Source: a virus
Virus record (IMG/VR): IMGVR_UViG_3300020152_000001
Span: 108,766 to 132,731 of that record
Direction: 5' to 3' (one strand)
DNA: 23,966 bases
Shown here: positions 3,877-19,984 of the stretch, piece after piece
How positions within the stretch are numbered: position 1 is the first letter of the stretch
Layout of the letters: each line of letters starts with the position of its first letter
Notes under the pieces: generated by a model
What the model saw: only the letters and a program-made list of their open reading frames with translations
Database searches by the model: none
Told to the model about the DNA's origin: nothing
Translations under genes and position numbers: made by a program

Positions 3877-3905
3877 GGGTTAGCCTAGCTGACGCCTGAT
3901 GTCAA
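3877..3905 (-). promoter_or_regulatory. Promoter P5 (distal tail operon)
   Basis: On the minus strand TTGACA (3905-3900) is followed after 17 bases by TAACCC (3882-3877). The -35 is perfect and the -10 is weak by the sigma-70 rule, but GCTAACCC partly fits the alphaproteobacterial GCTANAWC. A start near 3870 would leave a leader of about 10 bases before the ATG at 3860. The gap 3861-3918 contains nothing else. Confidence 0.55.
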
Positions 3906-3916
3906 CCAAAATTACG
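3878..3916 (-). promoter_or_regulatory. Operator pair over P5
   Basis: Two 17-bp sites fit CGTNAG-N5-CTNACG. One is at 3916-3900 (CGTAATTTTGGTTGACA, whose right half is the -35 hexamer). The other is at 3894-3878 (CGTCAGCTAGGCTAACC, covering the -10). Their centres are 22 bp apart, the same spacing as at P1 and at the lower pair of P2. Confidence 0.5.
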
Positions 3917-3918
3917 CA

Positions 3919-6900
3919 TTAACGCGAAAGCAGGTTGCGGATGCGGTCGCCGTTCTTGCCGATGACGTTCATGATCAGCTTCTCACCTTGGACGCTGCTC
4001 AGGGCCGCCAGGGTGTCGTTCGGGTCGATCTGGTTGACGACGCGGACGTTGACCTCCGGCGGAGCGGACTCGCCCCCGCCCGAGATCACACGGCCGCCGG
4101 CATTGTTCACCTGCTGAAGTAGGCCCATGTTCGCCGCCGCCGACTGAGCGTTGACGACGAATTCGCCCTGGCTCAGAGCACGCGGCACCGAGTCCGAGGT
4201 CCCGGTACCCGGGCCCGTGACGATGCCGCCATCGGCCATGCCGCCGCCGGCCATCGCCAGCATTTGGGCCATACCCACGGTGGTGGCGATGCCCGTCATC
4301 GCGGGCGCAGAGTTCGCGCCGAACGACGCCAAGCTGACCATCGCCGCCGCCGGAGCCCACGCCGACGCCGTCGTCGCGCCGGCTGCCGCGCTGGCGGCCG
4401 TGGCGCTGGCTTGAGCCGCCTGCCCGATCATCTGGTTGATGAGCATTTGGATGCCCATCTGGATCAGGCCCGAGATCAGGCTCGTCAGGGCCTGATTGAC
4501 GACATTGTAGAGGGCCGATTGCAGGTCTTCCGCGTAGACGATGGCACGGGCAAGAGAGTCGCCGAGACCTTGCGACAGGCTCTGAGCGGCCTCGGTCATG
4601 AGGTTGCCGAGAGTCGCTTGGGCGTTGCGCGCGCCTTCGGTCATGCGGGTCAGGCCCGCGAGGAATTGATCGATGTAGGTGCCGTTGCCGGCGGCAACTT
4701 GCCACTCCAGCGTCGCGGCCGTCATCTCCGCGAGATAATTGTTGTATTGCAGCGCCGTGATCGCGCCTTCGTCACGCAGGCGCTGGAGCGCTGAGATGCG
4801 TTGCTCGAAGCCTTCGTCGCTCGCGCCAACAAGGGCGTCCGCCGCAGAGCGGCCGGCGCGGCCTTGCATGACTCCGGCGTCGGCTGGAGTGAAGCCTTCG
4901 ACCGTGGCCATCGCCTGGGCGATGTTGCGAAGCTGTTGCTCGTATTCGTAGAGTGCCTGCGTCGTCGTCGAGATGACGCCAAGGCGTTCCGCGTAGGCCA
5001 TGTTGGTCTCGCGGATGGCGGCGTCGATGCGCCCTTCTTGGTCGAGTTCGGTGCCGCGAGCGTTGTTCAGCTCTTGAAGGCGATTGCGATAGTCAACAAG
5101 CGCTTGCTCGCGCTCGCTGTAGAGGCCGAGTTCTTCATTCGCACGTTGGAGTGCGCGCTGGTTCAGGCGTTGTGCTTCCTCTTCGGAGATCAGTCCGGCT
5201 TCGAGCGCAGCGGCATAGCGCTCACGGGTGAGCGTTAGATCGTAGATTGCCTTCTGCGTTGGGTTCAGAAGGTTGAGTTCGTCGCGGAGGTTGTCGCGAA
5301 CGCGGGCAAACACTTGATCCCGCGTTAGGCCGGCGGCGGCGATTTCACGTTGAGCTTCGGCAAGTTTCTCCGTGGCCTCACGCAGGGCCTCGGTGACCTC
5401 GACGGCCGGGAACATCGACGCCAGCCACTTGCGGCGTTGTTCGGACTCGCGCTGCATGCGGCGAGCGGCGGAGTTATTGCCGTCCGGATTTGCTCCAAGC
5501 GGATCGATGGAGTTGGGGTCGATCGGAGCCGTGACGAAGCCGGAGTCTTGCTGTTCCTGACCGCGCGCCGCTTCCGCAGCACGGCGGGCATCGCGGGCGA
5601 CTTCAGCACGAGCCGAAGATTGGCGCAGGAATTCTTGGAAGCCACTAGCTTCCGAGAGATCGCGAAGCACGCCGCCGAGCGCGTCGCCCGCTTGGGCGAA
5701 GCGGTCGGTGTTCATCGTCCGGGCGATGCGATCAGCGATGCGCTGGCCTGAGGCCATGCGCTCTTCCAGCGAGGTCGTGAAGGCGTCGCCAGCCATCGAC
5801 CCTGCCCGTTCCCAATCACCGCGAGCAGCGGCGCCCACGGCTCCGGCCATGTTGGAGAAGAAGCCGCCGATCGAGCGGCCGGCTTCATCGAACGACGCCA
5901 TGACAACGTCCACGGCCGCAACCGTGGCGTTGATGAGGAAGTTCATCACCGACTTGAAGCCGTTCCACACGAGGCTCAGGAACGACGAAATGCGGTCCCA
6001 GCCTTGAGCGAATACGCGGCCGAGGGTTTGACCGAACTTGCCAAGGTTCTCGCCGAGTTCGCCCATGACGCCAGTGAAGATGTCGCCAAAGGTCAGGCCT
6101 TTGTTGGCGAAGTCATCGAAGATGCCGGCGGCGCGGGCGCCTTCGACAGCAATGCCCGCGAGCGTGGCGATGGTGCCGAGGCCGGGGATGAGGCGCAGGA
6201 AGCCGACAAGGCGCGGCAGCATCGTCGTCGCCAATGGACCGATGCCGCGAACGGCGTTGAGGGCCGCCGGGCCAATGCGGGCCAGTCCCGTGGCCACGGC
6301 CGGACCAGCACTGGCAACGAGACGCGGCAGACTCGCGAGGCCGGCGAAGGCGCGGGTGAAGAGCTGCGGGAACGACAGCAGGACGTTGCTGATCGTCGAC
6401 GCCATGTTGACGATGCCACGGCCGGCCGTAGCGGCGCCAGAGACGACGCCGCGAGCGCTGGCGATTGCGAAGGCGTTGGCCTGGGTTGCGGCGAAGCTGA
6501 ACTGCAGACCAGCGTTACGCGCCGCGCCTGCTACGCCCAGTAGCGACTGAGCGATCGACATTGCCAGCAGCGTCTTGAACGCGGCGATGACCAAGTCAGC
6601 ATTGTCGACCGCCCAGACTGCCGCGTCGCCGATCATGCGGAACGCGTTGCCGAGGCTTTGGCCCAGGCGCGTGGCGAACTCTTGGAATTCTGCCGACTGC
6701 ATCGCCTGGGCGACGCGGCCGAAGGCGTCGGCGAGGCCGGCGTCGGCGCCTGATTGGCCGACTTGCACCAAGAACTGCGTGAACGCGTTCTTGAAGATCG
6801 TCATCTGCGCCGTGGACTTCTGCAAGGCCATGGAGACGCGGTCTTCGTAGAGACGCGCCATCTCTTCGGTCAGCAGCAAGGCCGCGTCGGCGCGAACGTC

Positions 6901-8208
6901 GCCACGCTCCAAGGCGGCGTCGAGGTTGAAGTTCTCGTCACCTGTGCGGCGGCGAATAGCCTGCTGCATCAAGTTGAAGGCGCCGGGAATCTGTTCCAAC
7001 TGACGGCGAAGTTCTTCGGCGGACACACGGCCCTTCGAGAACATCTGCTGCAACGCCATGAAGGTGTTGCGCTGCTGCATGGTGTCGAGGTTGAGCACCC
7101 GCATCGCGCCCGACCACACTTCGAACACGCGTCGGGCCTCATCGGCACTACGGCCGCTGAGCATCATCGCTGAAGCCAGCTTCGGGAATTCTCGCTGGGC
7201 GACGAGCACGTCGACGCCCATGCGGTTCGATGCTTCGCCAACGAAGTCTAGCATGCGCTGGACTTCATCGCCGTCGTCGATGAACGCGCCCATCGACGCT
7301 TGGAAGCCGATGACCGATGCGTTCGCTTCCATCATCGAACGCGTGAAGTTGCCAACCGTCAGCGAGACGAGAATGCTGCGGAAGAGCGTCCCCGCCTGAT
7401 AGCTGGCGTTGAACTGATTTTCGAGACCGCGCAGCGCACCAGTGGCGCGGAAGGCCCCGGACTGAATGTTGCCGAAGGCCCCATTAAAATTGGGGAAGCG
7501 GACGCTGCGAAGGTTCGCCGCCGCACGCGACATCGCGTTGAGAACGGCGATGATTTGCGGAGCCTGCGCCGGCGGCTGCATTTGCTGCAAGCCCGCTGCG
7601 AACGCTTGGAGATTTCGAACGGCCGCTGCGCTGGGGCCCTTCATACCCGCGAGCATTGCCGAGATTCCGCCGATGCTCTGCGTCGCGCCGGTGCGGCCGA
7701 AAGACGACAGCACCATGAAGAGATCGGCGATGCGGCGAGCGACGGCGGGGTTTGGCGCCTTCAAGTTCGCCAGGGCCGCGCTCATGCTCGTGAGGTTTTT
7801 GACCTGCGTGGCATTGGGTCCACGGAAGCCGTTCACGGCCGCCGCGAGCGCTTGCAGGTTCTGGCCGGCGCCGAAACGTGTCAGCCCCGACAGGATCATG
7901 AAGAGATCGGCGGTGCGGCGCACGGCGCCGGCGTTGGGTCCGCGAAAACCCGAGAGCGTGGCCGACAGACGCTCCCAATTACGAACGTTCGACGGATTGA
8001 TGCGAACGTTGGCGATGTCCGCCATCTCGCGGGCGACACGAGCAAAGCCACCGCGACCAGCGATGGCTTGCACGCGCTTCAGAGATTGTTCGCTGGAACG
8101 ATCGAGGCGAGACAGCGCACGCTCGACACGGGCGATAGCCGCATCGAATTCCGCAGCGCCTTGTTTGGCCTGCGTACTGTCTATGCCAAGGCGGAGTTTA
8201 TCGTCCAT
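3919..8208 (-). CDS. Tail tape measure protein, 1429 aa
   Basis: This is the longest gene in the window and directly follows the tail assembly chaperone pair, the invariant place for a tape measure. Residues 71-210 hold about seven helical repeats of roughly 20 residues; several begin with G-x-PN/PS followed by V/A-R-x-x-A/L. Around residues 330-410 lies a region with 'VAQREFPKLA' and 'SAEELRRQLEQIPGAFNL' typical of the tape-measure N-terminal domain. Ala/Gly-rich hydrophobic segments occupy about residues 545-745. A charged helical, probably coiled-coil part follows at about 920-1120. The C-terminus has the usual 'GGIVTGPGTGTSDSVP..LSQGEFVVNA' motif near 1330-1360. At about 1.5 angstrom per residue the length predicts a tail near 0.2 micrometre. 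The ATG at 8208 has only a weak AGG upstream. Confidence 0.95.
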   Translation of the reverse strand: MDDKLRLGIDSTQAKQGAAEFDAAIARVERALSRLDRSSEQSLKRVQAIAGRGGFARVAREMADIANVRINPSNVRNWERLSATLSGFRGPNAGAVRRTADLFMILSGLTRFGAGQNLQALAAAVNGFRGPNATQVKNLTSMSAALANLKAPNPAVARRIADLFMVLSSFGRTGATQSIGGISAMLAGMKGPSAAAVRNLQAFAAGLQQMQPPAQAPQIIAVLNAMSRAAANLRSVRFPNFNGAFGNIQSGAFRATGALRGLENQFNASYQAGTLFRSILVSLTVGNFTRSMMEANASVIGFQASMGAFIDDGDEVQRMLDFVGEASNRMGVDVLVAQREFPKLASAMMLSGRSADEARRVFEVWSGAMRVLNLDTMQQRNTFMALQQMFSKGRVSAEELRRQLEQIPGAFNLMQQAIRRRTGDENFNLDAALERGDVRADAALLLTEEMARLYEDRVSMALQKSTAQMTIFKNAFTQFLVQVGQSGADAGLADAFGRVAQAMQSAEFQEFATRLGQSLGNAFRMIGDAAVWAVDNADLVIAAFKTLLAMSIAQSLLGVAGAARNAGLQFSFAATQANAFAIASARGVVSGAATAGRGIVNMASTISNVLLSFPQLFTRAFAGLASLPRLVASAGPAVATGLARIGPAALNAVRGIGPLATTMLPRLVGFLRLIPGLGTIATLAGIAVEGARAAGIFDDFANKGLTFGDIFTGVMGELGENLGKFGQTLGRVFAQGWDRISSFLSLVWNGFKSVMNFLINATVAAVDVVMASFDEAGRSIGGFFSNMAGAVGAAARGDWERAGSMAGDAFTTSLEERMASGQRIADRIARTMNTDRFAQAGDALGGVLRDLSEASGFQEFLRQSSARAEVARDARRAAEAARGQEQQDSGFVTAPIDPNSIDPLGANPDGNNSAARRMQRESEQRRKWLASMFPAVEVTEALREATEKLAEAQREIAAAGLTRDQVFARVRDNLRDELNLLNPTQKAIYDLTLTRERYAAALEAGLISEEEAQRLNQRALQRANEELGLYSEREQALVDYRNRLQELNNARGTELDQEGRIDAAIRETNMAYAERLGVISTTTQALYEYEQQLRNIAQAMATVEGFTPADAGVMQGRAGRSAADALVGASDEGFEQRISALQRLRDEGAITALQYNNYLAEMTAATLEWQVAAGNGTYIDQFLAGLTRMTEGARNAQATLGNLMTEAAQSLSQGLGDSLARAIVYAEDLQSALYNVVNQALTSLISGLIQMGIQMLINQMIGQAAQASATAASAAAGATTASAWAPAAAMVSLASFGANSAPAMTGIATTVGMAQMLAMAGGGMADGGIVTGPGTGTSDSVPRALSQGEFVVNAQSAAANMGLLQQVNNAGGRVISGGGESAPPEVNVRVVNQIDPNDTLAALSSVQGEKLIMNVIGKNGDRIRNLLSR

Positions 8209-8216
8209 CGGCGGAC

Positions 8217-8627
8217 CTACGCCCGCCGACGACCTCCTCTAGGCGTCGTAGTCGCGGGCTTGTTTTTGGCTTTCGCCTCCAACTTCCGCTGCTCGATCTT
8301 CTGCTTTTCGTAGAAGTCCTTGAGCCACCAGTTGTCGAGAACCGGGATCACGCGGAGGAGGAAATCGATGTCGTCGTCGGCCTTGATGCCGCGAAGGCGG
8401 CAATAGGCTTCGATCTCTGTCGCTTGAATTGGGAGGGGACCGCTGCCGCTGTTGCTGCGCGTGCGGTGGCAGAACTCAAATGCCTGCCAAGCCCAGACGA
8501 GATCGGGATACACTGTGGGCATGTCGTCGAGGGTCTTCGACTCGATGCCCTTCTCTTCCCGAAGCTTCTGAAGCCAGCCACTATGCTGGGCTGCTGGCTT
8601 CAGAGTCCACTTCAGGAAGTCGATTAG
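8217..8627 (-). CDS. Tail assembly chaperone, frameshift-only C-terminal extension (gpGT-like)
   Basis: This frame is open from the slippery site to the TAG at 8217 and adds 136 residues. It is in the -1 frame relative to the upstream chaperone gene. After slippage it reads LIDFLKWTLKPAAQ... and continues without a break into the MPTVYPDLVWAWQAFEFC segment. An ATG at 8522 could give a separate 101-aa protein, but it has no clear ribosome site and would omit 35 conserved-looking residues, so I treat the frame as the T-domain of a gpG-gpGT pair. The C-terminus is very basic (KAKNKPATTTPRGGRRRA). In lambda-like tails the T extension contacts the tube protein while the G part coats the tape measure. 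The fusion would be about 273 aa. Confidence 0.8.
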   Translation of the reverse strand, partial: LIDFLKWTLKPAAQHSGWLQKLREEKGIESKTLDDMPTVYPDLVWAWQAFEFCHRTRSNSGSGPLPIQATEIEAYCRLRGIKADDDIDFLLRVIPVLDNWWLKDFYEKQKIEQRKLEAKAKNKPATTTPRGGRRRA

Positions 8628-9037: not shown

Positions 9038-9152
9038 GAGGACTCCAAGGGGAGGAATTGCAGGGACCGGCCCGGACCAGTCCCTTGATCGCAGCAGGAG
9101 GCAGGCGTCTCCGTGGGGACGGAGGGATTAAACCCACGGCCGGGGACGCCAC
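9038..9152 (-). promoter_or_regulatory. Structured leader of the chaperone transcript
   Basis: Between P3 and the GTG at 9037 there are two perfect or near-perfect hairpins. One is at 9124-9109 (6-bp stem, CCCC loop). The other is at 9085-9062 (9-bp stem with one G-U pair, 6-base loop). Neither is followed by a T-tract, so I do not call them terminators. The second lies about 16 bases upstream of the GGAG ribosome site. There is no gene in this stretch. Confidence 0.45.
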
Positions 9153-9220
9153 GTTAGTGACACTAACGCCTCCCCGGACCTCTGTCAAGTCGAAATTAAC
9201 AGCCGTCAGTACGGCTTACT
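9152..9220 (-). promoter_or_regulatory. Operator array at P3, including a perfect palindrome
   Basis: CGTTAGTGTCACTAACG at 9168-9152 has perfect 8-bp arms around one central base and is the best dyad in the family. A second good site is at 9204-9220, read on the plus strand as CGTCAGTACGGCTTACT. A middle half-site is TTGACA at 9183-9188. Centres at 9160, 9191 and 9212 give spacings of 31 and 21 bp. The 6-bp inverted repeat AGCCGT/ACGGCT at 9201-9216 overlaps the upper site. Confidence 0.55.
9160..9188 (-). promoter_or_regulatory. Promoter P3 (tail chaperone / tape measure operon)
   Basis: Minus-strand TTGACA (9188-9183), a 17-base spacer, then TAGTGT (9165-9160). The -10 lies wholly inside a perfect 8-bp inverted repeat (9168-9152), so a dimeric protein bound there would block the promoter. 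Confidence 0.6.
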
Positions 9221-9223
9221 TCC

Positions 9224-11029
9224 TTAGACAGGGGTAGTTGGGGAGAAGCGATCGATCTGGATCATGCAGGCCGTGGCCTGATCGCGGAACGCCGTGAACT
9301 CCATGGTTTCCATGATGTCCTGGTCGATACCGCCCGGGGCCACGGGGTCCGAGGTGATCTTGATCGCGGGCAGTGAGTAGTAATACGTGTTGCCGTCGAG
9401 GTCGGTGAACGACCAGCCAATCGACACGGTGTCATGGTCGATGAAGGCCTCGTACATCTCGAAGTTCTCGAAGTACGCCGTCAGTGTGCCCGTCAGCTGG
9501 AAGCGGCCGGTGCCGATGCCACGCGGGAATTTCGAGCCCACCGCCATTTGGTTGCGGAGGCTGGCGTCGCCTTCGAGGGCGATCGATTGCAGAGCCGTCG
9601 CGAGGCTGACGCCGTTCTTGGTCAGCGAACCGACGTTCGTGGTCGCGTTCATGACCTCGGTGGCCGGAGCCTGGAGGTTCACGTAGCTGCCGCCCACGAG
9701 GAACGGATCATCAGTCGGAGACCGGCGGGTCTCGCGGCCTTGGAACGAAAACGAGCCCGTGACGATCGCGCCCGAGGACACGTCCATTTTCCAGGCGCCG
9801 ACGCGGAGGCCGTCTTGGATCAGGTGCTTGTCGACATCGTTGAACGAGGTCGCGATCGAGGTCGATTGCGCCAGGATGGCGGCCACGTCCCCGGGGTTCC
9901 GGAGCATCGAGCCCTTCACCGTCACCGGGGCACCGGCAGTGGCGTCGGCGGCGATGTTCTCAGCGACAACGATCGCGTCGTTGCCGGCCGAGACAACCGT
10001 GAAGAAGCCGCGAGCGGTCGGAGATGCACCCGTGAAATCGGTGATCGTCGTGTTGCCATCGGCGTCGGCCACTTCCGTGATCGAGCCGTTGACATCGTTC
10101 ATATTGACCAGGGTCACCGTGTCCGTGGCGACGCTGACCTTGAGGTTCAGATTGCCAGCGACAACGTCGGCGAGGATGGCCGCAGCCAGAGCCGCAGCAG
10201 ACGCGTCAGCATCTGCGCCGGGCGTCAGTTCGCCAGGGTCGCCGCCAAACGTATAGGTGATCGGGTCGTTGACGCCGTCGTCGATTTCAATCGAAACCGT
10301 GGTCGCGACTTCGTCGAACTGGATGGAGCCCGTCGCGTAGCCCAGGCCGTTGACGAAAATCTTCTGGCCGGACCTCAGCTGGCCGGTGGCGATGGCCGAC
10401 GTGAAGACGCCCACACCCGCCAGGGTGTTCGTCGCGGCGACAGCAGAGATGCCGGTGTTGTTGAGGACGAAGACATCGTTGGCGTCGAACAGGCGAGCCG
10501 CAGCCGCACCGGCTTCGGCGACGGGCGTGCCGGCGACGCCGGTCACGTCAATATCGGTGTTGCCACCAGTGAAGTTGACAGCGGCGACTTCGGCGTAGGT
10601 GTTGTTGTTCGGGTTCGCGAAGCCTTCGGTCTTGATGCGGCGGCCAACCGTGAAATAGTCGCTGTAGTCGGCGCCGGAGATGCGAAGGGTGTTCGCGTCG
10701 ACCCAGCTCAGGGTCGCGCCCTTCCACTGGTCGAAGCCCATCGGCCGCGTCCACGTGCCCAGCACGAATTGCTGGATGAAGTCGTCTTGGCTGCCGGCCG
10801 AGAACTCGAAGTTCACGTCGCCGCCGGACATCGCCGACACTTCGACGACCGAGGAGACCATGCGGTCGGCGCGGAGTTCGTCAGACGTGACTGTTTCCTT
10901 CGAAGCCGCGAGGCTCGAAGAGGTCAGACGCAGTTCGCGAACAACGCCGGAGGCCGGGGTCTGACCCCAAGCGGACGGGCTCTCGACGATGTAACGCAGA
11001 CTGACGCGGTTTGAGTCGGCAAAGCTCAC
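9224..11029 (-). CDS. Major tail (tube) protein, 601 aa, with inserted domain
   Basis: The GTG start at 11029 has a perfect AGGAGG (11040-11035) five bases upstream, the strongest ribosome site in the window, as expected for an abundant virion protein. Residues 1-185 (RELRLTSSSL..., 'SDYFTVGRRIKTEGFANPNNNTYAEV') and 400-595 ('SGSFSFQGRE', 'GTGRFQLTGTLTAYFENFEMYEAF', 'DIMETMEFTAFRD') look like the two halves of a siphophage tail tube protein. Residues about 190-375 appear inserted. They contain 'SIEIDDGVNDPITYTFGG' and 'SAAALAAAILADV', a pattern seen in exposed phage decorating domains. The usual tube protein is much shorter than 601 aa. It lies between the terminator and chaperone genes and has its own promoter P4. 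Confidence 0.88.
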   Translation of the reverse strand: MSFADSNRVSLRYIVESPSAWGQTPASGVVRELRLTSSSLAASKETVTSDELRADRMVSSVVEVSAMSGGDVNFEFSAGSQDDFIQQFVLGTWTRPMGFDQWKGATLSWVDANTLRISGADYSDYFTVGRRIKTEGFANPNNNTYAEVAAVNFTGGNTDIDVTGVAGTPVAEAGAAAARLFDANDVFVLNNTGISAVAATNTLAGVGVFTSAIATGQLRSGQKIFVNGLGYATGSIQFDEVATTVSIEIDDGVNDPITYTFGGDPGELTPGADADASAAALAAAILADVVAGNLNLKVSVATDTVTLVNMNDVNGSITEVADADGNTTITDFTGASPTARGFFTVVSAGNDAIVVAENIAADATAGAPVTVKGSMLRNPGDVAAILAQSTSIATSFNDVDKHLIQDGLRVGAWKMDVSSGAIVTGSFSFQGRETRRSPTDDPFLVGGSYVNLQAPATEVMNATTNVGSLTKNGVSLATALQSIALEGDASLRNQMAVGSKFPRGIGTGRFQLTGTLTAYFENFEMYEAFIDHDTVSIGWSFTDLDGNTYYYSLPAIKITSDPVAPGGIDQDIMETMEFTAFRDQATACMIQIDRFSPTTPV

Positions 11030-11089
11030 TGGGGCCTCCTAGAAGACATCAGGCAAAGGGGCTCGGAGGCCCAAGATGTGGGAATATGG

Positions 11090-11136
11090 CGTTAGCCAAA
11101 ATATCGTAAACGTCGCTGGTGTCAATATGGCTAACG
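11090..11136 (-). promoter_or_regulatory. Operator pair flanking P4
   Basis: CGTTAGCC at 11136-11129 and its exact reverse complement GGCTAACG at 11097-11090 bracket the promoter. The upper 17-bp site is CGTTAGCCATATTGACA (11136-11120), containing the -35. The lower site at 11106-11090 keeps only a perfect right half (CTAACG). Centre spacing is 30 bp. A direct repeat of AATATGGC on the plus strand (11083-11090 and 11124-11131) accompanies them. Confidence 0.5.
11098..11125 (-). promoter_or_regulatory. Promoter P4 (tail tube gene)
   Basis: Minus-strand TTGACA (11125-11120), a 16-base spacer, then TATTTT (11103-11098). The leader to the GTG at 11029 is about 60 bases. It carries a weak GGGC/GCCC hairpin (11074-11060), too short to call a terminator. 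Confidence 0.6.
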
Positions 11137-11153
11137 GCTCGCGTCAGACCAGA

Positions 11154-11582
11154 TTACCCCTCTGGGGCGTGCCGTTCGTCCCGGAAGTAAGGGACCTTGA
11201 CCCCTACCCCAGCGAAGCCTCGGCGATCGGCGGCCGGCGGATAACTGGCGGCCCGGAGCGTCAGCCGGGCTCCGTCTTCGAGCTGGTGGTCTCGTTCCTG
11301 GAAATGCCGGCCGATGCCGTTTGCGACGGTATTCGCCAAGGCGCTGCCTGTGTTCTCGGGCTGATAGACCGTGATTTCCAGGTCGCCCTCCAGGCGCACC
11401 ACGAAGTTAGGTCCGAGGTTGGCGCGGACGGCTCCCGCCTCCTTGATCCTGATGGCGACGAAAGGCCCGTCCGGTTGTTCGAACGGAGCGTTCGTATAGG
11501 CGACGGGGATCGAGGGGTGGTTCGCCGTCATGAAGTCGCGGAGCCGCGTCTCCAGCAACTTGCGTTGGGTTTCAAGAGACAT
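11154..11582 (-). CDS. Tail terminator-like protein, stand-alone copy, 142 aa
   Basis: The 142-aa protein begins MSLETQRKLLETRLRDFM and contains 'NAPFEQPDGPFVAI', 'RANLG..FVVR', 'VYQPENTGS' and 'YPPAADRRGFAG'. These match the DUF4128/phage tail terminator-like family. It aligns over its full length with the first ~135 residues of the gene at 16271-17005, with shared blocks MSL.TQR, NAPF.QPDGPF, RANLG, VYQPEN.GS and RGFA. Tail terminators cap the tube and join it to the head-neck, and are usually encoded just before the tube gene, as here. Start ATG at 11582, with AAGG upstream; it follows the fibre gene by 11 bases. It is likely to be the true terminator because it lacks the extra domain of its paralogue. 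Confidence 0.82.
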   Translation of the reverse strand: MSLETQRKLLETRLRDFMTANHPSIPVAYTNAPFEQPDGPFVAIRIKEAGAVRANLGPNFVVRLEGDLEITVYQPENTGSALANTVANGIGRHFQERDHQLEDGARLTLRAASYPPAADRRGFAGVGVKVPYFRDERHAPEG

Positions 11583-11593
11583 GTCAGTTTGCC

Positions 11594-13567
11594 TTACAGT
11601 TGAGCATACTCGTATTCGATCAGGTAGTTGACCGCGAGCTGATCGCCGGCAGCCCAGCCGTTGGCCCCGGTGAAGTTCAACCAGAAGCCCGTGTCGCCTT
11701 CGGTGATGGTGACGGTGCCGCTATCGGTATTCCGAGTCCGGTTGCGGACGTTGCTGTTGTTGGCGTTCGGATTGTAGACCGTGACTTGTCCAGTGACCCA
11801 CCCGCGAAGTGCGAGCGGGACTTTGTACGGGATGAAGTGGTTCTGTTGCGCCGTGTTCGCGGCGACAGAAGTCATTCCGTGATGCCCTGCTGAGCTGTTG
11901 TTCGCAGGTGTCGTGAACGGTCCAAACGATTTCTGGCAGTACGGAAGACACTGAGCCAGCGACTCTTCATATCGAGCAGGATGCCACATCGCGGGATCAT
12001 ACGAGTCACCGCGCGTGAGAACTTGCTTCGAGATGTCCAGAGTTTCGTCTTGCGCCATCGTGCCTTCGATCCAGACGATTGTAGCCGTCTGATTGACGTT
12101 GGCTGGAGTCACGCCAGACACCTGAAAAGTATTCCAGACGTTTTGCGTGAGCGGAATGGCGCCGGAAACCGCAACGACTTCCCACTGAGCAGCGGTCTTG
12201 AAGAAGTTGCCTTGTGTGAAGGTGGTGCTCGTCCAGTCGAGTACGGGGTCGGAGCCAACACCGTCCCAGACGTTGGTGCCAGTTGATTTGTACGCGAGGA
12301 TGGCACAGCGAAGACTCTGTCCCGCTGCTGAAGGTCGAGCCCGGCCGCCATACACAATCTCTTGGCCGTCACCAATCCAGTTGATGCCGCGCCGATCGAT
12401 CTGAGTTTGCATTTGGCACATGCCAATGCGCTGCGGTGTCCCGCTTGCTTGAATCAGTCGAAAGCAGCAAGCAGCGCCGTCGCCGTCATGCAGGAGCTGT
12501 TCGATCCGCGAGGTCGCTGACTGCGTGAGAATCTTCCAGCGATCGACTGTCATGCGATTGTCGGCACGGTTGGTGCCGCTGTTCATCTGACCATTGCGAC
12601 GTTGGTCGATTAAGCCATCCCAGTTATCGAGATAGTTCGGCGCCGCCCCGCCCCCGCCGCCTGTAGCGGCGTCGGCCCAGCCCACATCTCCGTCGCCGTC
12701 GCTGTTCTTCACAAGAACTTGGCCGGTCGTGCCGCCAACGGGAACGCCTTCGCCGCCGGCAGCGAGAAGCTCCCAATACACGGCGTTCGGTGGTTCTTGA
12801 TTAGAGTGCGTCTGTACGCAGATGTACGAGTCGCCTTGGTGTTCGACGGCATCATCAACTGCATACGCCGTGGCGTCGCTCCATTCACCTTTCCAGTTGA
12901 GGCCCTTGTCACCTTGCGGGCCCTCGTCCCCTTGTGGGCCTTGCTCACCCTGAAGGCCTTGTTCGCCTTGTTCGCCTTGGATGCCTTGCGGACCTTCGGC
13001 GCCGGTATCGCCTTTCGACACCATGAGTTGCCAATCGTCCGGCTGAGACACCGGAACCTGATTGGTGTTCGTCGTCAGCGAAATGTAGGCACTGCCGTTG
13101 TAGTAGACGGTGTCGTTAGGCTCGTACTCGGTGGCGTTGTTCCAGGTACCGCGCCACGTGATGCCTTCTCCTTGCGGACCAGTCGGACCTTGGTCGCCCT
13201 GCGGGCCGGGGATGCCGCCGGGCACCCAACCGCCGTCAGGAGCCCAGAACAAGGTCTTGCCGGGCGTGAGAATGCACTTGTAGAGCTGATAGTCGTCGGC
13301 ATCATCGCGGAAGTAGACTGTAACTTCTATGTCCGCAGTGTCTGCGTTGTAGATGTTGATCGACTTCGTCTGACGCTGAAGCGTACCAGACGCAGGAGGA
13401 GCGATGATCTCCGTGAGTGTGCTTCCATTCAGGAAACCAAACTGCACGCCCGGCACGAAGATACCGTCGCCGATGTCGACGTAGTCACACTGAAAGCGCG
13501 GCTGATGAACTGCCGGCGCTTCAGCGATAGCGGCGTAAATCGCACGAGTGGTCGTAGTCAGGATCAT
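11594..13567 (-). CDS. Collagen-like tail fibre / receptor-binding protein, 657 aa
   Basis: The upstream-extended frame overlaps the previous gene, so I take the ATG at 13567, two bases after the previous TAA. The product starts MILTTTTRAIYAAIAEAPAV. Domains: residues 1-118 form a beta N-terminal domain ending 'LFWAPDGGWVPGG'. Gly-X-Y collagen-like stretches lie at 120-135 and 186-222. Two carbohydrate-binding-module-like units (W.G.W...T.Y...D.V...G..Y......P....W.L) lie at 137-185 and 223-270. After a Gly-rich linker (303-308), residues 310-657 form a large C-terminal domain beginning 'NWDGLIDQRRNGQMNSG...DRW', a pattern common in fibre tips. No Shine-Dalgarno is obvious, so coupling to the upstream gene is likely. 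A role in host binding is inferred. Confidence 0.8.
   Translation of the reverse strand: MILTTTTRAIYAAIAEAPAVHQPRFQCDYVDIGDGIFVPGVQFGFLNGSTLTEIIAPPASGTLQRQTKSINIYNADTADIEVTVYFRDDADDYQLYKCILTPGKTLFWAPDGGWVPGGIPGPQGDQGPTGPQGEGITWRGTWNNATEYEPNDTVYYNGSAYISLTTNTNQVPVSQPDDWQLMVSKGDTGAEGPQGIQGEQGEQGLQGEQGPQGDEGPQGDKGLNWKGEWSDATAYAVDDAVEHQGDSYICVQTHSNQEPPNAVYWELLAAGGEGVPVGGTTGQVLVKNSDGDGDVGWADAATGGGGGAAPNYLDNWDGLIDQRRNGQMNSGTNRADNRMTVDRWKILTQSATSRIEQLLHDGDGAACCFRLIQASGTPQRIGMCQMQTQIDRRGINWIGDGQEIVYGGRARPSAAGQSLRCAILAYKSTGTNVWDGVGSDPVLDWTSTTFTQGNFFKTAAQWEVVAVSGAIPLTQNVWNTFQVSGVTPANVNQTATIVWIEGTMAQDETLDISKQVLTRGDSYDPAMWHPARYEESLAQCLPYCQKSFGPFTTPANNSSAGHHGMTSVAANTAQQNHFIPYKVPLALRGWVTGQVTVYNPNANNSNVRNRTRNTDSGTVTITEGDTGFWLNFTGANGWAAGDQLAVNYLIEYEYAQL
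12902..13216 (-). repeat. Collagen-like segments in the 657-aa fibre gene
   Basis: Gly-X-Y tripeptides (GPQGDQGPT, then [19 protein letters not shown]) occur in two blocks either side of a binding-module-like unit. Repeated GCCTTG/GCCCTG-type plus-strand units show the same periodicity in the DNA. Confidence 0.75.
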
Positions 13568-13569
13568 GA

Positions 13570-15372: not shown

Positions 15373-16268
15373 TACGCCCACACCACGCTGATGGCGGCGC
15401 CTGTTTGGATGTTGTTGAAGCGGATGACATTGTAGTCTTCGGTGTGACCGCTTGCGTTAGTTAGACTTACGACGGAGACCGTGAAATCAGAGAACGCGAG
15501 GCCGCCAACGGTGACGGAGCTAGGGACGCCGAACGATGCCGGATACGCGTAGTACGGATACCGCCCGCCGCTGGCGTTGTAGGTGATCGCCTTGCCAAAC
15601 GACGTGGCAAACTCGCTGCCGCCGAGCGCAAGAATTTGCGCGTTGTTCAGTGTCGTCAGAGCCGACACGCCCCAATAGCGGCGACGGCGGAAGGCGATGC
15701 TCGTACTCGCTTGCCGAGTTTGCTCGCCGTCAGACATCGTCAGCGTCCAGGTGCGATCGGCGGTGAAGGGCCCGGCTACGGTTTCGCTGCGATCACCGAC
15801 GACGAGATCACCGACACCTTGATTGATCGACTGGCTGACTTCGTCCTTGTTGTACGACCACGAGAGCGTGACATCGGCGACGGAGCTGCCAATCTCCATG
15901 GTGCCGCGATTGTTCGTGAAGCTCGTGATCTGCGGCGGCGTGTAGAACAAGGAATCCAGAGCTTCCTTCACGTTCGTGAAGCCGGCGTTGTTGTAAGCAA
16001 CGTCCTCTGCGTAGGAAGCTCCGCCACCGCCGCCTTCGAACACTTCCCAGGCGTCGACGCCGACTAGCTGATACGCGGTAGAGTCTTCCCGGACGTAGAC
16101 GATCATTCCCGTGGAGCGACGAAGCTCCGGGATGGCATCGCGATCGGCGATGGTGTCGACTTCGCGCCACCCTCCCTTTCCGTATTCGGCGCTGTGCGTT
16201 GGGAATTCGTCAGCGGAGTCGAAAGGAGCGAGCGGTGCGGCGACGTTGGTGCCAGGTATTGCAACCAA
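15372..16268 (-). CDS. Tail fibre-type protein, 298 aa
   Basis: An open frame extends to 16748, but that part overlaps another gene and is Arg/Ser-rich noise. I choose the TTG at 16268, two bases after the upstream stop, because its product [16 protein letters not shown] aligns exactly with the N-terminus of the next fibre. A GTG at 16280 is the alternative. Residues 1-77 are the shared N-terminal domain. Residues 78-84 are a Gly linker. About 85-110 are a short helix ([13 protein letters not shown]). About 112-195 are a beta domain ([14 protein letters not shown]...[15 protein letters not shown]). Residues 198-298 are a C-terminal domain (RYWGVS...[29 protein letters not shown]...[18 protein letters not shown]). 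That last domain is also fused to the terminator-like protein upstream. No ribosome site is seen. Confidence 0.75.
15455..15471 (+). promoter_or_regulatory. Intragenic match to the operator dyad (tentative)
   Basis: CGTTAGTTAGACTTACG fits CGTNAG-N5-CTNACG without mismatch but lies inside the 298-aa fibre gene, encoding its 'SLTNAS' segment. It could be a real stray operator or chance imposed by coding. Confidence 0.2.
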
Positions 16269-16270
16269 GG

Positions 16271-17005
16271 TTACGCCCACATGACGGAGATTGCGGCCCC
16301 GTGCTGAATGAAGTTGAAGCGCAGAACGTTGTAGTCCTCGCCGTTGATGTTCACGCTTGAAACCGTGAAAGCAGAGAACGCCAAAGAGCCGATCATGACC
16401 GAGGCCGGCACTCCGAACGACGCCGGAATTGCGAAGTACGGATAGCGCCCGCCCGTGCAGTTGTAGATCACGGTCTTCACGAAGCTCGACGCCATCTCTT
16501 CGCCGCCGAGAGCCAGCACGCCATCGGCATCGAGAGACGGAGAAACGGACACGCCCCAGTAAATGGGCTTCAGGCCCGGCAACACGCTGTCGCTCATCTC
16601 GTCGCGATAGTAGTTGCAGCGCATCATCGTCCGAGCGAACCCGCGAGCCACAGGCGCTGGCGGATACGCGAAGGCGCGGAACGTAAGCTTCGCCGTGTCT
16701 GCGAGCTGAAACTTCTGCTCCTGAAACAGCGGCGCGATGCCATCGCACAGCTGAGTCATCAAAACGCTGCCGCTGTTCTCCGGCTGATAGACATCGATTT
16801 GCAGGACGCCGGGATGGCGCACCACGTATCGGGCCCCAAGGTTGGCGCGGAAGCCGTCACCATCCATGAGGTACACGGCGATGAAAGGACCATCCGGCTG
16901 GGAGAACGGCGCATTGAAGAACGCGATCGGCACCAGCGGATAATTTTCCGCCATGAAGTTCTGGACCCTCGCTTCGACGAAGGCGCGTTGGGTCTGGAGC
17001 GACAT
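16271..17005 (-). CDS. Tail terminator-like protein fused to a fibre-type C-terminal domain, 244 aa
   Basis: The start ATG at 17005 overlaps the upstream stop as TAATG. Residues 1-135 (MSLQTQRAFVEARVQNFM, NAPFSQPDGPF, RANLGARYVVR, VYQPENSGS, YPPAPVARGFA) match the DUF4128/tail terminator-like family and the stand-alone copy at 11154-11582. Residues about 148-244 (YWGVSVSPSLDADGVLALGG, GGRYPYFAIPASFGVPASVMIG, YNVLRFNFIQHGAAISVMWA) match the C-terminal domain of the next gene (its residues 198-298). Terminators are normally about 130-150 aa, so this is an unusual fusion. Either it makes a modified neck protein bearing an exposed domain, or it is the remnant of a recombination between a terminator gene and a fibre gene. 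The frame is intact and the upstream coupling is preserved. Confidence 0.78.
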   Translation of the reverse strand: MSLQTQRAFVEARVQNFMAENYPLVPIAFFNAPFSQPDGPFIAVYLMDGDGFRANLGARYVVRHPGVLQIDVYQPENSGSVLMTQLCDGIAPLFQEQKFQLADTAKLTFRAFAYPPAPVARGFARTMMRCNYYRDEMSDSVLPGLKPIYWGVSVSPSLDADGVLALGGEEMASSFVKTVIYNCTGGRYPYFAIPASFGVPASVMIGSLAFSAFTVSSVNINGEDYNVLRFNFIQHGAAISVMWA

Positions 17006-17490
17006 TAGATCGCTCCAGCCTGCATGCGTGCTTCCAATTCCGAGAGCGCGACGCCGATCATACCCATGGGGCTACGCTGACGCAGCGGCGACTCCGGCAG
17101 CTGCCCAGCTTCGAGGCCGGCCCACTGTTCGGAGTTGTTCGACAGGTAGACGACGCGGCCGAAAGTCTTCGACCAATCTATCTCATGAAAGCTGGCGTTC
17201 GCCATGCCTTCGTTGGCGCGGCGGCGAGGTTCGGCTCCGAGCGGCAAGTCATTCGTTCGGCCCGGGCTCGCAGGAGAGTTGATGGGCTCGATGGTGCCGA
17301 CAAACGGAGTGTCCAGCGACCATTGATAGTTGGCGACGGCTTCACCCGTATGCACGGGCGTGCGAGCAAGCGCGCGTTCGTGAATGAAGAAGGCGATGCG
17401 CTCGATGCGATCTGTCATCTCCTTCTTCTTTTCCGGAAGAAAGGACTGCAGATGCTTGGAGAATGCGGCGCGGTTCTGGATGACGCTCAT
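17005..17490 (-). CDS. HK97 gp10-like neck / tail completion protein, 161 aa
   Basis: The ATG at 17490 has AAGGAGG seven bases upstream, overlapping the previous gene's stop. The N-terminal half is a helix (FLPEKKKEMTDRIERIAFFIHERALARTPVHTGEAVANYQWSL). The 'ARTPVHTGEA..NY.WS' motif is typical of HK97 gp10-type proteins, which act at the head-tail joint. The second half ends with 'SWVYLSNN'-like content (VVYLSNNSEQWAGLEAGQLP) and a C-terminal helix. Order connector, closure, gp10-like, terminator is the usual siphophage one. Confidence 0.85.
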   Translation of the reverse strand: MSVIQNRAAFSKHLQSFLPEKKKEMTDRIERIAFFIHERALARTPVHTGEAVANYQWSLDTPFVGTIEPINSPASPGRTNDLPLGAEPRRRANEGMANASFHEIDWSKTFGRVVYLSNNSEQWAGLEAGQLPESPLRQRSPMGMIGVALSELEARMQAGAI

Positions 17491-17502
17491 TGCCGCGCCT
17501 CC

Positions 17503-17877
17503 TTAGACTTCGCGGACGTGCAGCATGTGCAGGCTCTCGCCGGGGACGCCGAGAATGCGTTGCACGTTGTAGGTTTTCTCTGCACCGTTGACGGTGGCGA
17601 TGATGCGGTCGTTCTCGTTGGGATTGACGGGCAAATCCTTCGCGGGGATCAGCACCTTCATGTCCGTGGTCACGATGACTTCGCCGTCGAGTTCGTTCAG
17701 GCCAAAGCGAGCGAGCACGCCTTTGACTTCGTGCTCTGCCGTGGTCTCGGTGATGGCTCCGGTTTCGGGATTGTACGCAGGCGCGGTCACCGACACGTAA
17801 GTGATCGTCGGAGCCAAGTCGTCGAGCGTTACGAAGGCATTCGAGACGAGATCGCGGATGAGATCGCGGAACGCCAT
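17503..17877 (-). CDS. Head-closure / head-tail joining protein, 124 aa
   Basis: The ATG at 17877 follows the upstream stop by one base. The protein starts MAFRDLIRDLVSNAFVTLDD. It has a small beta domain with 'EHEVKGVLARFGLNELDGEVIVTTDMKVLIPAKDL', then 'ENDRIIATVNGAEKTYNVQRI...PGESLHMLHVREV'. This 'G....F...E.DG..V..TD.K.LIPA.DL' pattern is what I recall for phage head-closure (stopper) proteins. The place between the connector and gp10-like genes agrees. Its stop TAA is adjacent to the next gene's Shine-Dalgarno. Confidence 0.8.
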   Translation of the reverse strand: MAFRDLIRDLVSNAFVTLDDLAPTITYVSVTAPAYNPETGAITETTAEHEVKGVLARFGLNELDGEVIVTTDMKVLIPAKDLPVNPNENDRIIATVNGAEKTYNVQRILGVPGESLHMLHVREV

Positions 17878-17878
17878 G

Positions 17879-18388
17879 TTACGTCCGCTTGATTGGCTTG
17901 AACCCGTTGCCGCCAGCGATGACGCCTAGGCCACGAAGCAGCGCACCGATCGTCGAGGGGATCACCGGAGCCCGGTAGTATTCGTCGAATTCCAAACGCA
18001 CGACATCAGCTTGCAGAACCTTGAGCCCTTCCTTGCCGGTCTCTTGTGTCCGATCGCGAACCATGAGGAAGCGCGCGAGTTCGCAGACGGCGTTTTTCAG
18101 CGCCGTTGGGATTTCGTTGACGCCGATCGGTGTGCCGTCGACATCCTTGACGTTCGTTCGCGGCCACCGCAGCGGCGAGTCTTCGTCGGTTTTTACGCCG
18201 TACCAAGTCGCCTGGGCGTCGATCTCTCGCGTCGCCCAGATGAGAAGGTTCTCTTTGTTCTCAACCGTCAGCGCCGACCATTGGGCGAAGACGTGGATGT
18301 TTGCCGAGAGATACGCGTCGGCGTAGTCGACATCGACATAGGAATTGGCGCCGTCGACGACGGTGCCGTCTTCCACGACCAAGGCCAT
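17879..18388 (-). CDS. Head-tail connector, DnaT-like (adaptor) protein, 169 aa
   Basis: I choose the ATG at 18388, with GGAGG about six bases upstream; the longer frame to 18517 would run through the promoter and terminator. Product: MALVVEDGTVVDGANSYVDVDYADAYLS, then 'WSALTVENKENLLIWATREIDA', 'SPLRWPRTNVKDVDGTPI' and 'IPTALKNAVCELARFL'. This is the classic DnaT-like/adaptor family layout (VV.DG....ANSYV....A..YL, L..AT..ID, WPR, IP..L..A..ELA). Members attach to the portal ring as the first head-tail adaptor. It is the first gene of the neck operon after P2, behind a possible attenuator. Confidence 0.85.
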   Translation of the reverse strand: MALVVEDGTVVDGANSYVDVDYADAYLSANIHVFAQWSALTVENKENLLIWATREIDAQATWYGVKTDEDSPLRWPRTNVKDVDGTPIGVNEIPTALKNAVCELARFLMVRDRTQETGKEGLKVLQADVVRLEFDEYYRAPVIPSTIGALLRGLGVIAGGNGFKPIKRT

Positions 18389-18410
18389 GGGCGCCCTCCG
18401 CGCTAAGGGG

Positions 18411-18440
18411 TGAAGAAAAGGGCGGGGCCGGAGCCCCGCC
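18411..18440 (-). terminator. Intrinsic terminator in the neck-operon leader
   Basis: On the minus strand, a perfect 8-bp stem GGCGGGGC/GCCCCGCC with a TCCG tetraloop (18440-18421) is followed by CTTTTCTT. It lies downstream of promoter P2 and only about 13 bases before the connector gene's ribosome site, so it would act on that gene's own transcript. Confidence 0.65.
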
Positions 18441-18466
18441 GGATGCCGGCGCAACCAAGTGCCGGC
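18437..18466 (-). promoter_or_regulatory. Competing leader hairpins (attenuator-like)
   Basis: Upstream of the terminator the transcript has GCCGGC (18466-18461), a second GCCGGC (18450-18445) and CCGGCG (18442-18437). The first pair can form a stem. Alternatively CGCCGG/CCGGCG (18451-18437, CAT loop) forms a 6-bp stem that takes four bases of the terminator's 5' arm. That is the 1:2 / 2:3 / 3:4 logic of an attenuator. No start codon for a leader peptide is seen. Confidence 0.4.
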
Positions 18467-18488
18467 GAGCGGCCGTAGCCGAAGCTGA

Positions 18489-18517
18489 AAGTTAACCACA
18501 CTGACGGCAAAAGTCAA
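18489..18517 (-). promoter_or_regulatory. Promoter P2 (neck operon)
   Basis: Minus-strand TTGACT (18517-18512), a 17-base spacer, then TAACTT (18494-18489). A second TTGACA at 18547-18542 has no matching -10 and is probably only an operator half-site. The leader to the ATG at 18388 is about 95 bases. The whole gap 18389-18552 is regulatory sequence. Confidence 0.6.
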
Positions 18518-18558
18518 TCTGGCTTACGGCCCCGGGCGACTTGTCAAGCCCATTAACG
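18490..18558 (-). promoter_or_regulatory. Triple operator array at P2
   Basis: Three copies of the dyad lie in one orientation: 18558-18542 (CGTTAATGGGCTTGACA), 18528-18512 (CGTAAGCCAGATTGACT) and 18506-18490 (CGTCAGTGTGGTTAACT). All three are preceded by GC. Centres are 30 and 22 bp apart. The lower two overlap the -35 and the -10. The uppermost overlaps the PhoH stop codon. Confidence 0.6.
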
Positions 18559-19263
18559 GCTCTGCTCGAAGGCCGCGACCCACTCTCGGGCGATGGCCGA
18601 CCTCACCACGTCTTCGGGGCCAAACTCGATGACCTCGGCCTCTATCCCGCATTCGTCGACCATTTCGAGAATGCGGGATAAACCGCTGTCGTGGATGTCC
18701 ACCTGCGTTGGGTCGCCACAAACTACGACCTGAGAGTCCTCCCCTATCCGGGTCAGAAACATCTTCAGGTCACCTAGCGTGCAATTCTGCGCCTCGTCGA
18801 GGAGCACACAGGCGTTGGGTATCGAACGGCCTCGCATGTGTTCGAAGCTTAGGAATTCGATCTTGCCGTCCTGCCGGAGCTTCTCGATCGTGGCTCCGCT
18901 GGCCTCGGCCGCGAAACCGTCGAGGATGGGAATGAGCCAAGGCTGGAGCTTTGCTTGGAGGTTGCCGGGGAGGAAGCCTTGGCGATGACGATCGGCGGAC
19001 ACTGTCGGCCGGCAGACGACGACCTTGTCGAAGTCTCCGGCAATGACGCCGCGAAGGGCGAGGCGGGCCGCGATGTAAGTTTTGCCGGAGCCGGCGGCTC
19101 CGATGCCCATCACCTGATCAAACTCGCTCAGGGCGGCGATATAGCGCGTCTGGGCGGGGGTTCGGGCCTTCAGCGGGGGAAACGTCCGCTGTTGTTTTTC
19201 GGCCCTCATACGGCGACGCTCGCGCCGCTTCTCGGCCTTTGATTGGTGGGTAGTTGGCTCCAT
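18553..19263 (-). CDS. phoH: PhoH-like ATPase, 236 aa
   Basis: I choose the ATG at 19263, with GGGAGG five bases upstream; the longer frame would include the terminator just before it. The protein has a basic N-terminus (KAEKRRERRRMRAEKQQRT), then 'TPAQTRYIAAL'. Walker A is GAAGSGKT (55-62). 'CRPTVSADRHRQGFLPG' (84-100) is the typical PhoH segment. Walker B is VLLDEAQN (153-160), and GDPTQ lies at 183-187. All key P-loop residues are present, so it should bind and hydrolyse ATP. PhoH-like proteins are common phage accessory genes, with possible RNA-helicase or stress roles. Their function in phages is unproven. The place inside the virion-gene cluster, between a terminator and the neck promoter, is unusual. 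Confidence 0.92.
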   Translation of the reverse strand: MEPTTHQSKAEKRRERRRMRAEKQQRTFPPLKARTPAQTRYIAALSEFDQVMGIGAAGSGKTYIAARLALRGVIAGDFDKVVVCRPTVSADRHRQGFLPGNLQAKLQPWLIPILDGFAAEASGATIEKLRQDGKIEFLSFEHMRGRSIPNACVLLDEAQNCTLGDLKMFLTRIGEDSQVVVCGDPTQVDIHDSGLSRILEMVDECGIEAEVIEFGPEDVVRSAIAREWVAAFEQSR

Positions 19264-19280
19264 CGGGACCTCCCAGGCAC

Positions 19281-19312
19281 AAAAAAGGCGGTCGGGCCAT
19301 CGGCCCGCCGCC
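19281..19312 (-). terminator. Strong intrinsic terminator upstream of phoH
   Basis: On the minus strand GGCGG-CGGGCC, loop GAT, GGCCCG-A-CCGCC forms an 11-bp stem with one bulged A (19312-19287). It is followed by TTTTTTG. It ends 17 bases before the phoH ATG. It would stop transcription coming from P1 after the small membrane-protein gene. Confidence 0.8.
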
Positions 19313-19351
19313 AGGGTGAGTTCGCAGGTAGGAGAAGATCGCGGCTTAGCT

Positions 19352-19651
19352 TCATCCCGTTGGCGGAGCACCGCCGAACGCAGCTTGGAGGCCGAGCCAA
19401 AGGAGGGTGCCGAGGGCGGTGACGCCGGACGCAATCACGGCGCCGACCAGGGCGATGCGGGAGGCACGAGAGCCCGTGCGAAGATCGCGGAGATAGGCTT
19501 GGTCCTTTTGGACTTCGAGGGGCTTGCTGATGTCAAAGCCCAAAGTCGTCAAGGCGCGCGGCAGCGCTACTTCCACGGCTTGTTCCGCCGCACGTTGAAG
19601 TGCGGCGTCGAGATCGCCACGGGAGATGACGACGAGTTCCTGATCTTCCAT
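19352..19651 (-). CDS. Small phage membrane protein, 99 aa
   Basis: The ATG at 19651 has AGGG overlapping the previous stop. The N-terminal part is an amphipathic acidic helix (ISRGDLDAALQRAAEQAVEVALPRALTTLGFD). Next comes 'VQKDQAYLRDLRTGSRASR', and then one hydrophobic segment at about residues 65-90 (IALVGAVIASGVTALGTLLWLGLQAAF), followed by a short Gly/Pro tail. The '...LGFD...P...QKD..YLR.LR......TM' layout is common among small phage proteins of unknown function. A single-span holin or an exclusion-type membrane protein is possible, but the sequence does not decide. It is the last gene before a strong terminator. Confidence 0.75.
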   Translation of the reverse strand: MEDQELVVISRGDLDAALQRAAEQAVEVALPRALTTLGFDISKPLEVQKDQAYLRDLRTGSRASRIALVGAVIASGVTALGTLLWLGLQAAFGGAPPTG

Positions 19652-19661
19652 GACACCAGCC

Positions 19662-19895
19662 CTATTCTTGTTCTTGTTGTTGGGCTTGCCGCTCGCGGGC
19701 GGCGGTTACATAGGGAATTCCGAGAACGGTCTCGGGAGATTTCGATGGGTGTTCGAAGGTCCACCCGCGTTTGACGATGAGGTCGTCCAGGCGGTCGGGA
19801 GTGACTTCGAACATCTGCCCGTCTGGGTCATAAACTGTCACGAGCACGGCCGCCTCCGAAAGGCGTGAGACCCTGGCAGCGGCTGGACGACCCAT
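19662..19895 (-). CDS. Small hypothetical protein, 77 aa
   Basis: The ATG at 19895 opens a 77-aa frame, first in the P1 transcript. It is followed after 10 bases by the membrane-protein gene. No strong ribosome site is seen (GTAGATTAGA before the ATG). The product (MGRPAAARVSRLSEAAVLVTVYDPDGQMFEVTPDRLDDLIVKRGW...) has one beta hairpin and a helix, 'TPDRLDDLIVKRGW', that looks like a small structural or binding domain, and a Gln/Glu-rich C-terminus. I do not recognise the family. Confidence 0.65.
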   Translation of the reverse strand: MGRPAAARVSRLSEAAVLVTVYDPDGQMFEVTPDRLDDLIVKRGWTFEHPSKSPETVLGIPYVTAARERQAQQQEQE

Positions 19896-19944
19896 TCTAA
19901 TCTACAGGTGTGTGATCGCGTCCGCTTGTTGTCCCACGGCGGCT

Positions 19945-19973
19945 ATGTAAGCAGAACTGACGGCCGATGTCAA
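19945..19973 (-). promoter_or_regulatory. Promoter P1 (small-gene cassette)
   Basis: Minus-strand TTGACA (19973-19968), a 17-base spacer, then TTACAT (19950-19945). GCTTACAT also fits the alphaproteobacterial -10 partly. The leader to the ATG at 19895 is about 40 bases. The gap 19896-20017 holds no gene. Confidence 0.65.
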
Positions 19974-19984
19974 GCAGACTGACG
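19946..19984 (-). promoter_or_regulatory. Operator pair over P1
   Basis: CGTCAGTCTGCTTGACA (19984-19968) and CGTCAGTTCTGCTTACA (19962-19946) are near-identical 17-bp dyad sites with centres 22 bp apart. The first contains the -35 and the second the -10. A further CTGACA half-site lies at 19996-19991. Confidence 0.6.

Follow-up and report, generated by a model that had tools for sequence, protein, structure and literature searches.

Dispersed symmetric dyads as candidate operators of a CI-type repressor in a large siphophage of the phiCbK group

In cluster A mycobacteriophages such as L5 and TipsytheTRex, stoperators are asymmetric, 13 bp long and recognised by a monomeric repressor that has two DNA-binding domains (PMC9283540). 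Phage P1 carries 22 asymmetric 17-bp operators for its repressor C1 (PMC8546580), and MrpR of SPbeta, for which about ten promoters are named as bound, has a tyrosine-recombinase fold (PMC10516654). The protein C.Csp231I recognises CTAAG-N5-CTTAG (PMC4321490). In 2025 the Dolichocephalovirinae, the subfamily of phiCbK, were reported to persist as episomal pseudolysogens, and the authors, who asked for work on the mechanism, also suggested that such phages may make no immunity repressor (PMC12195562). Among other relatives of the phage studied here, the respective papers note an integrase and a repressor in DSS3phi8 (PMC4961962) and, for Lacusarx, no recognised switch and a negative lysogeny test (PMC5648845). 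In the mostly open-access literature covered, the searched passages of the papers on phiCbK (PMC3556154), DSS3phi8 (PMC4961962) and Lacusarx (PMC5648845) report no operator network.

Here we analysed a window of 23,966 bases that spans positions 108766 to 132731 of a virus record 132,731 bases long, and thus the end of a 132.7-kb phage genome. The record is classed as linear and carries an identical repeat of 127 bp at 1-127 and 132605-132731 (window 23840-23966); because this repeat is common to both record ends, the genome is probably complete and circularisable. On the basis of its gene content (tape measure, tail chaperones, PhoH, DNA polymerase, RNR, rIIA/B and primase) and its best matches, the phage is placed with the large siphophages of the phiCbK / Lacusarx / Mwe-JY26 / DSS3phi8 group. 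Peptide deformylase and an HslV-family peptidase are also phage-encoded (record 75538-76047 and 7970-8497), and two genes of the window, 11154-11582 and 16271-17005, both match the tail terminator family phrog_179, the latter overlapping the next downstream gene. Gene calls were made with a simple script, so the positions of some gaps may be wrong, and promoters are sequence matches throughout.

Dyads in promoter gaps of the window and the genome

The initial annotation of the window had described copies of a palindromic dyad on every promoter of the structural region. All copies named there lie at their given positions, and the one at 9152-9168 is a perfect dyad (Table 1). The five gaps named as large enough for a promoter do carry copies, but gaps 8514-8623 (among the tail-chaperone genes) and 19264-19351, which come in addition to these five, are without a site, and strong copies at 11582-11598, 15455-15471 and 10990-11006 had been missed. 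Searched as a loose pattern with three mismatches, the dyad occurs 118 times against 117.9 in shuffles, which is chance level, and therefore the consensus as first written proves nothing alone. De novo motif discovery in gene-free DNA returned nGTMAGYnWnRCTKACn, a symmetric dyad of 17 bp. Genome-wide, 72 sites score at least 12 bits with this motif, 54 of them in gaps and 18 in genes, and permuted-column matrices yield about 0.6 sites in gaps. The matrix scan of the whole genome, from which a preference for promoter regions had been anticipated, thus places the sites predominantly in promoter gaps (4.26 per kb versus 0.15 per kb in genes). To avoid circularity, a held-out matrix was trained solely on the 108.8 kb outside the window; at a threshold of at least 12 bits it detects 8 sites in the 1,035 gap bases of the window versus 2 in its 22,915 coding bases. 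When the window gaps are joined, the same matrix finds 7 sites, compared with a mean of 0.02 and a maximum of 1 in 300 dinucleotide shuffles. Direct control of late operons had been the original reading. The structural promoters do carry sites, but the network extends beyond late genes: sites of at least 12 bits span the structural, early, replication and nucleotide-metabolism modules, and the suspected presence of sites at early promoters extends to replication genes.

Table 1. Candidate operators of the window and genes of the lysogeny module (window positions unless marked as record).
Feature	Position	Strand	Support
Operator, right half is the -35 TTGACA, promoter of gene 3860-2949	3900..3916	-	13.9 bits, held-out matrix
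Operator over the -10, promoter of gene 3860-2949, 22 bp downstream of the 3900..3916 site	3878..3894	-	14.4 bits, held-out matrix
Operator of gap 9038-9223 at the tail chaperone genes, upstream of the promoter there	9204..9220	-	11.3 bits, held-out matrix
Perfect dyad covering the -10, with a - strand TTGACA 17 bp upstream of it	9152..9168	-	pattern and held-out matrix
Intragenic operator shortly after the start of the major tail protein gene	10990..11006	-	14.2 bits, held-out matrix
Partial upstream operator, array in gap 11030-11153	11142..11158	-	9.9 bits, held-out matrix
Operator with the -35 TTGACA in its right half, array in gap 11030-11153	11120..11136	-	held-out matrix
Weak operator at the -10/start region, array in gap 11030-11153	11090..11106	-	10.6 bits
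Possible roadblock: lone operator directly next to the start codon of gene 11582-11154 (tail terminator)	11582..11598	-	17.7 bits, held-out matrix
Operator within gene 16748-15372; the tail-fibre gene starts about 90 bp further on	15455..15471	-	17.7 bits, held-out matrix
Partial site CGTTAATGGGCTTGACA, the third at the Ad1 gene and upstream of its promoter	18542..18558	-	pattern search
Operator with the -35 TTGACT in its right half, Ad1 gene promoter	18512..18528	-	held-out matrix
Operator over the -10, 22 bp downstream of the 18512..18528 site	18490..18506	-	held-out matrix
Operator with the -35 TTGACA in its right half	19968..19984	-	held-out matrix
Operator over the -10 (TTACAT), 22 bp downstream of the 19968..19984 site	19946..19962	-	held-out matrix
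Xis/AlpA-like HTH_17 protein gene, after the P0001 gene	record 98592-98837	-	
tRNA-Arg, between the Xis/AlpA-like gene and the integrase			
Tyrosine integrase	record 99121-100281	+	
Cro-like 85-aa HTH protein	record 100391-100648	+	strong HTH_3

Placement was counted for 75 sites, each taken in the direction of the gene that follows it. In 9 of them TTGAC starts at +3 relative to the dyad centre, so that the right half of the site serves as the -35; in 11 it starts at -18/-19, and these sites cover the -10. In the opposite direction TTGAC is almost absent around the sites. Both placements read earlier from the structural promoters, a site supplying the -35 and a site lying over the -10, occur across the genome. 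Among the centre spacings proposed for the window, 22 bp was reproduced, but spacings of 19-20 bp are also dominant between neighbouring sites genome-wide. Nearly all recognisable promoters of the phage have sites. A site lies within 32 bp of all 19 intergenic TTGAC[A/T] hexamers that face a gene (24% expected), an association that is partly built in because nine sites themselves contain TTGAC. A further class consists of lone sites without TTGACA: 14 of the 75 sites lie at most 15 nt from a start codon, and as YGTAAG-N5-CTGACA lone sites are oriented with transcription in 18 cases versus 6 against (p=0.023). These lone sites are the candidates for stoperators.

The CI-type protein P0001 and its relatives

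The candidate regulator, P0001, is a protein of 252 aa encoded outside the window, after the RNR gene (record 97831-98589, + strand). Its N-terminus is a Cro/C1 HTH (HTH_31, 4e-9), and over its full length it matches the phage repressor family phrog_4 (E=2.9e-17). The HTH profile of the P0001 family has its best match in P22 C2 (4e-11) and also matched C.Csp231I. The C-terminus is weakly S24-like, at 17.1 bits below the Pfam cut-off of 23.3, and the Mwe-JY26 homologue scores above this cut-off. SOS-type self-cleavage of P0001 seems unlikely, since in both proteins, as judged by eye, the catalytic Ser and Lys of S24 are replaced by Asn. With an integrase, an att-like tRNA and a repressor homologue, a temperate gene set is present (Table 1). 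A search for sites beside an HTH repressor gene had been proposed; only weak sites and no operator cluster are found upstream of the P0001 gene, and the gaps of the repressor/integrase module contain no site of at least 12 bits (4.1 expected, p=0.017). Ahead of the Cro-like gene (record ~100281-100350) lie two palindromes of another kind, GCGTCATATATGACGC and GGGTCATATATGACC, possibly the gene's own operator. A genome scan via the primase family detected no integrated prophage of this phage and gave only two distant, partial matches.

A homologue of P0001 was detected in all 13 named relatives tested, the weakest being that of L02 (E=0.006), and it adjoins RNR/dUTPase genes in Mwe-JY26, Lacusarx (gp032), DSS3phi8 and phiCbK (gp309). 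Independent motif discovery in the relatives yielded gap-enriched dyads; counting this one, ten phages show clear dyads, nine of 17 bp and one of 19 bp. The dyad is GTCAG-N5-CTGAC in Mwe-JY26, TGTCA-N7-TGACA in DSS3phi8, MD18, RpAliso and RcXuper, YGTCRWGAWTCWYGACR in phiCbK (41 gap sites versus 0.4 for permuted matrices), the 19-bp TGTCMAGAAWTTCTKGACA in Cp1R7A-A1, and of the GGTTAG-N5-CTAACC type in Lacusarx and the IMG/VR record G015. Several dyads were found in both Lacusarx and RcXuper, and from these the one in this frame was taken, which in RcXuper ranked second. The four DSS3phi8-type phages have the recognition helix SRAAVGQWE and one motif in common, as do G015 and Lacusarx with the helix SRATIVQYE. 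The co-variation of motif and regulator that had been anticipated is borne out by the correlation of HTH distance with motif distance (Mantel r=0.76, p=0.0002), which is r=0.65 (exact p=0.010) when the DSS3phi8 group is collapsed and partly reflects phylogeny. Moreover, the relatives keep dyad and spacing, with TTGAC at +3 or +4 in all phages with clear dyads, so that loss of the dyad with retention of -35 and -10, named beforehand as evidence against operators, was not seen. The region upstream of the repressor gene itself has weak to moderate sites in most relatives, the exception being Cp1R7A-A1 with 18.9 bits.

Other genomes gave mixed outcomes. In RXM, GTnAG-N5-CTnAC occurs 7 times in gaps and never in genes, and its de novo motif is mixed. 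XM05, L02 and the fragment G001 contain the homologue, but no clear dyad of this frame. The A/T-rich palindromes of XM05 and L02 differ from the GTnAG-N5-CTnAC dyad and are similar to that of G017 (IMG/VR 3300000271_000010), in which, without a detectable CI homologue, TTAACCGTWACGGTTAA is gap-enriched (45 gap sites versus 0.4 permuted). The gaps of RcXuper (W09) hold a second palindrome, WTSRGCTTSAAGCYSAW, in 49 gap copies, perhaps terminators. In the closest IMG/VR fragments, G006, G011 and G012 (47% primase and 72% RNR identity), which are too short for the comparison, no motif and no CI gene were seen.

Proposed direct silencing and its alternatives

We consider it highly probable that P0001, the CI-type repressor encoded by the phage itself, recognises the dyads as its operators; as a dimer it would silence early, replication and late promoters directly. 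Binding, repression, roadblock and lysogeny by P0001 are predictions from sequence. A P0001 dimer would bind each 17-bp site (half-site YGTMAG) through its N-terminal Cro/C1 HTH, and neighbouring dimers about two turns apart would occupy both the -35 and the -10 element of promoters read by the host sigma factor. In the dormant phage each early, replication and late unit would then be shut separately, with no need for a late activator to be off. If the late genes use host-sigma promoters, as TTGACA suggests, keeping them off would require direct silencing. Lone sites beside the start codons of co-directional genes may act as stoperator-like roadblocks, although whether they block elongation is in our estimate an evenly balanced question. 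The repressor/integrase module, being without strong sites, would escape silencing.

The initial annotation had left the choice between a repressor and a late activator. A dimer recruiting RNA polymerase to middle or late promoters would agree with those sites that lie upstream of the -35, and CI-type proteins are able to activate as well as repress. However, a common position of the sites is on the -35 or -10 itself and thus in the promoter core, where an activator fits less well, lone sites abut start codons, and early and replication modules also carry sites; the repressor is therefore favoured, and we regard activation as very improbable. The position of lone sites next to start codons, and the potential of the dyad to fold as a 6-bp stem with a 5-nt loop, could also point to an RNA hairpin, acting as a terminator or translational operator. 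Dyad positions 4 and 14 are mostly non-pairing (A/G, the commonest pair, in 23 and C/T in 11 of 75 sites) and show no RNA-type pairing covariation, so the element appears to act as DNA, and no T tract follows the lone sites examined. The hairpin was rejected on the missing covariation, and we give this reading next to no probability.

Another phage protein could bind the dyads and time the change from early to late lytic expression rather than dormancy. The Cro-like 85-aa protein (record 100391-100648) has a strong HTH_3, and phiCbK encodes a separate early XRE factor, TgrL/Gp216, which represses host genes (PMC10688885). However, different palindromes of its own stand before the Cro-like gene, TgrL is described as having no C-terminal domain (PMC10688885) and is apparently another gene than that of the RNR-linked repressor, with gene numbering differing between records, and the dyad motifs follow the HTH of the CI homologue, which makes this reading unlikely. 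Use of a host regulator site, for CtrA or another global factor, would have a precedent in the promoters of phiCbK and Cp1R7A-A1 that are regulated through CtrA sites (PMC9437464). The CtrA site itself, TTAA-N7-TTAA, is unlike GTnAG-N5-CTnAC and is ruled out by sequence as the identity of the dyad. A host factor in general we judge highly improbable, as one motif is common to four phages that have different hosts and nearly the same CI recognition helix, and G017 and G013, which lack a detectable CI homologue and are fragments or of unknown completeness, contain no GTnAG-N5-CTnAC.

Implications and comparison with known systems

Direct silencing by P0001 may have a counterpart across the superfamily. 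We see about an equal chance for and against a general scheme in which one orthologous, non-cleavable CI-type repressor would act on dozens of promoters through some 30-130 lineage-specific symmetric operators, with lone sites as roadblocks, and would in "virulent" phages including phiCbK permit episomal pseudolysogeny and set immunity groups. The relatives, among them the textbook virulent phage phiCbK, carry equivalent sets of candidate operators, each matched to the repressor of its own phage. The network could supply the mechanism for episomal pseudolysogeny in the Dolichocephalovirinae, and, with a named phiCbK gene (D865_gp309 / phiCbK_211) and a defined site, the pseudolysogeny question becomes directly testable. 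Such operator networks thus offer a testable mechanism for the dormancy of these phages in cells. Furthermore, operator and HTH drifting together provide a natural series for studying immunity specificity.

The stoperator network of cluster A mycobacteriophages had been named as the nearest parallel, and this comparison holds for the layout, but not for site symmetry or repressor family. As in cluster A, more than 20 sites are dispersed in promoters and short gaps near start codons; unlike there, the sites are 17-bp symmetric dyads and the protein is of the CI type. Stoperators are oriented with transcription, for which the lone sites here show a weak tendency (18 versus 6, p=0.023). The phage would resemble P1 as a large temperate phage with dispersed operators and one master repressor, C1 in P1, whereas the P1 sites are asymmetric. 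SPbeta, also a large phage, has in SPBRE a repeated 15-bp element that is bound by a master repressor at dispersed intergenic promoters, but our candidate is a Cro/C1 HTH protein and not of the MrpR type. The recognition sequence of C.Csp231I is nearly GTAAG-N5-CTTAC with the same spacing, and its HTH is a weak sequence match; C.Csp231I, however, is a restriction-modification controller with two sites only. The CI-type repressors of lambda and P22 have the Cro/C1 HTH and tandem dyads of about 17 bp over -35 and -10 in common with our system, in which the C-terminus of P0001 is weakly similar to their S24 domain and which differs in extending to dozens of promoters rather than OL/OR and in the apparent replacement of the S24 catalytic Ser and Lys. 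Dispersed networks are thus known in L5, P1 and SPbeta, each with its own type of repressor. What appears to be new is a CI-type repressor with symmetric dyads as such a network, also in phiCbK, where a plain CI-type dimer appears to run a dispersed network at larger scale and superfamily-wide.
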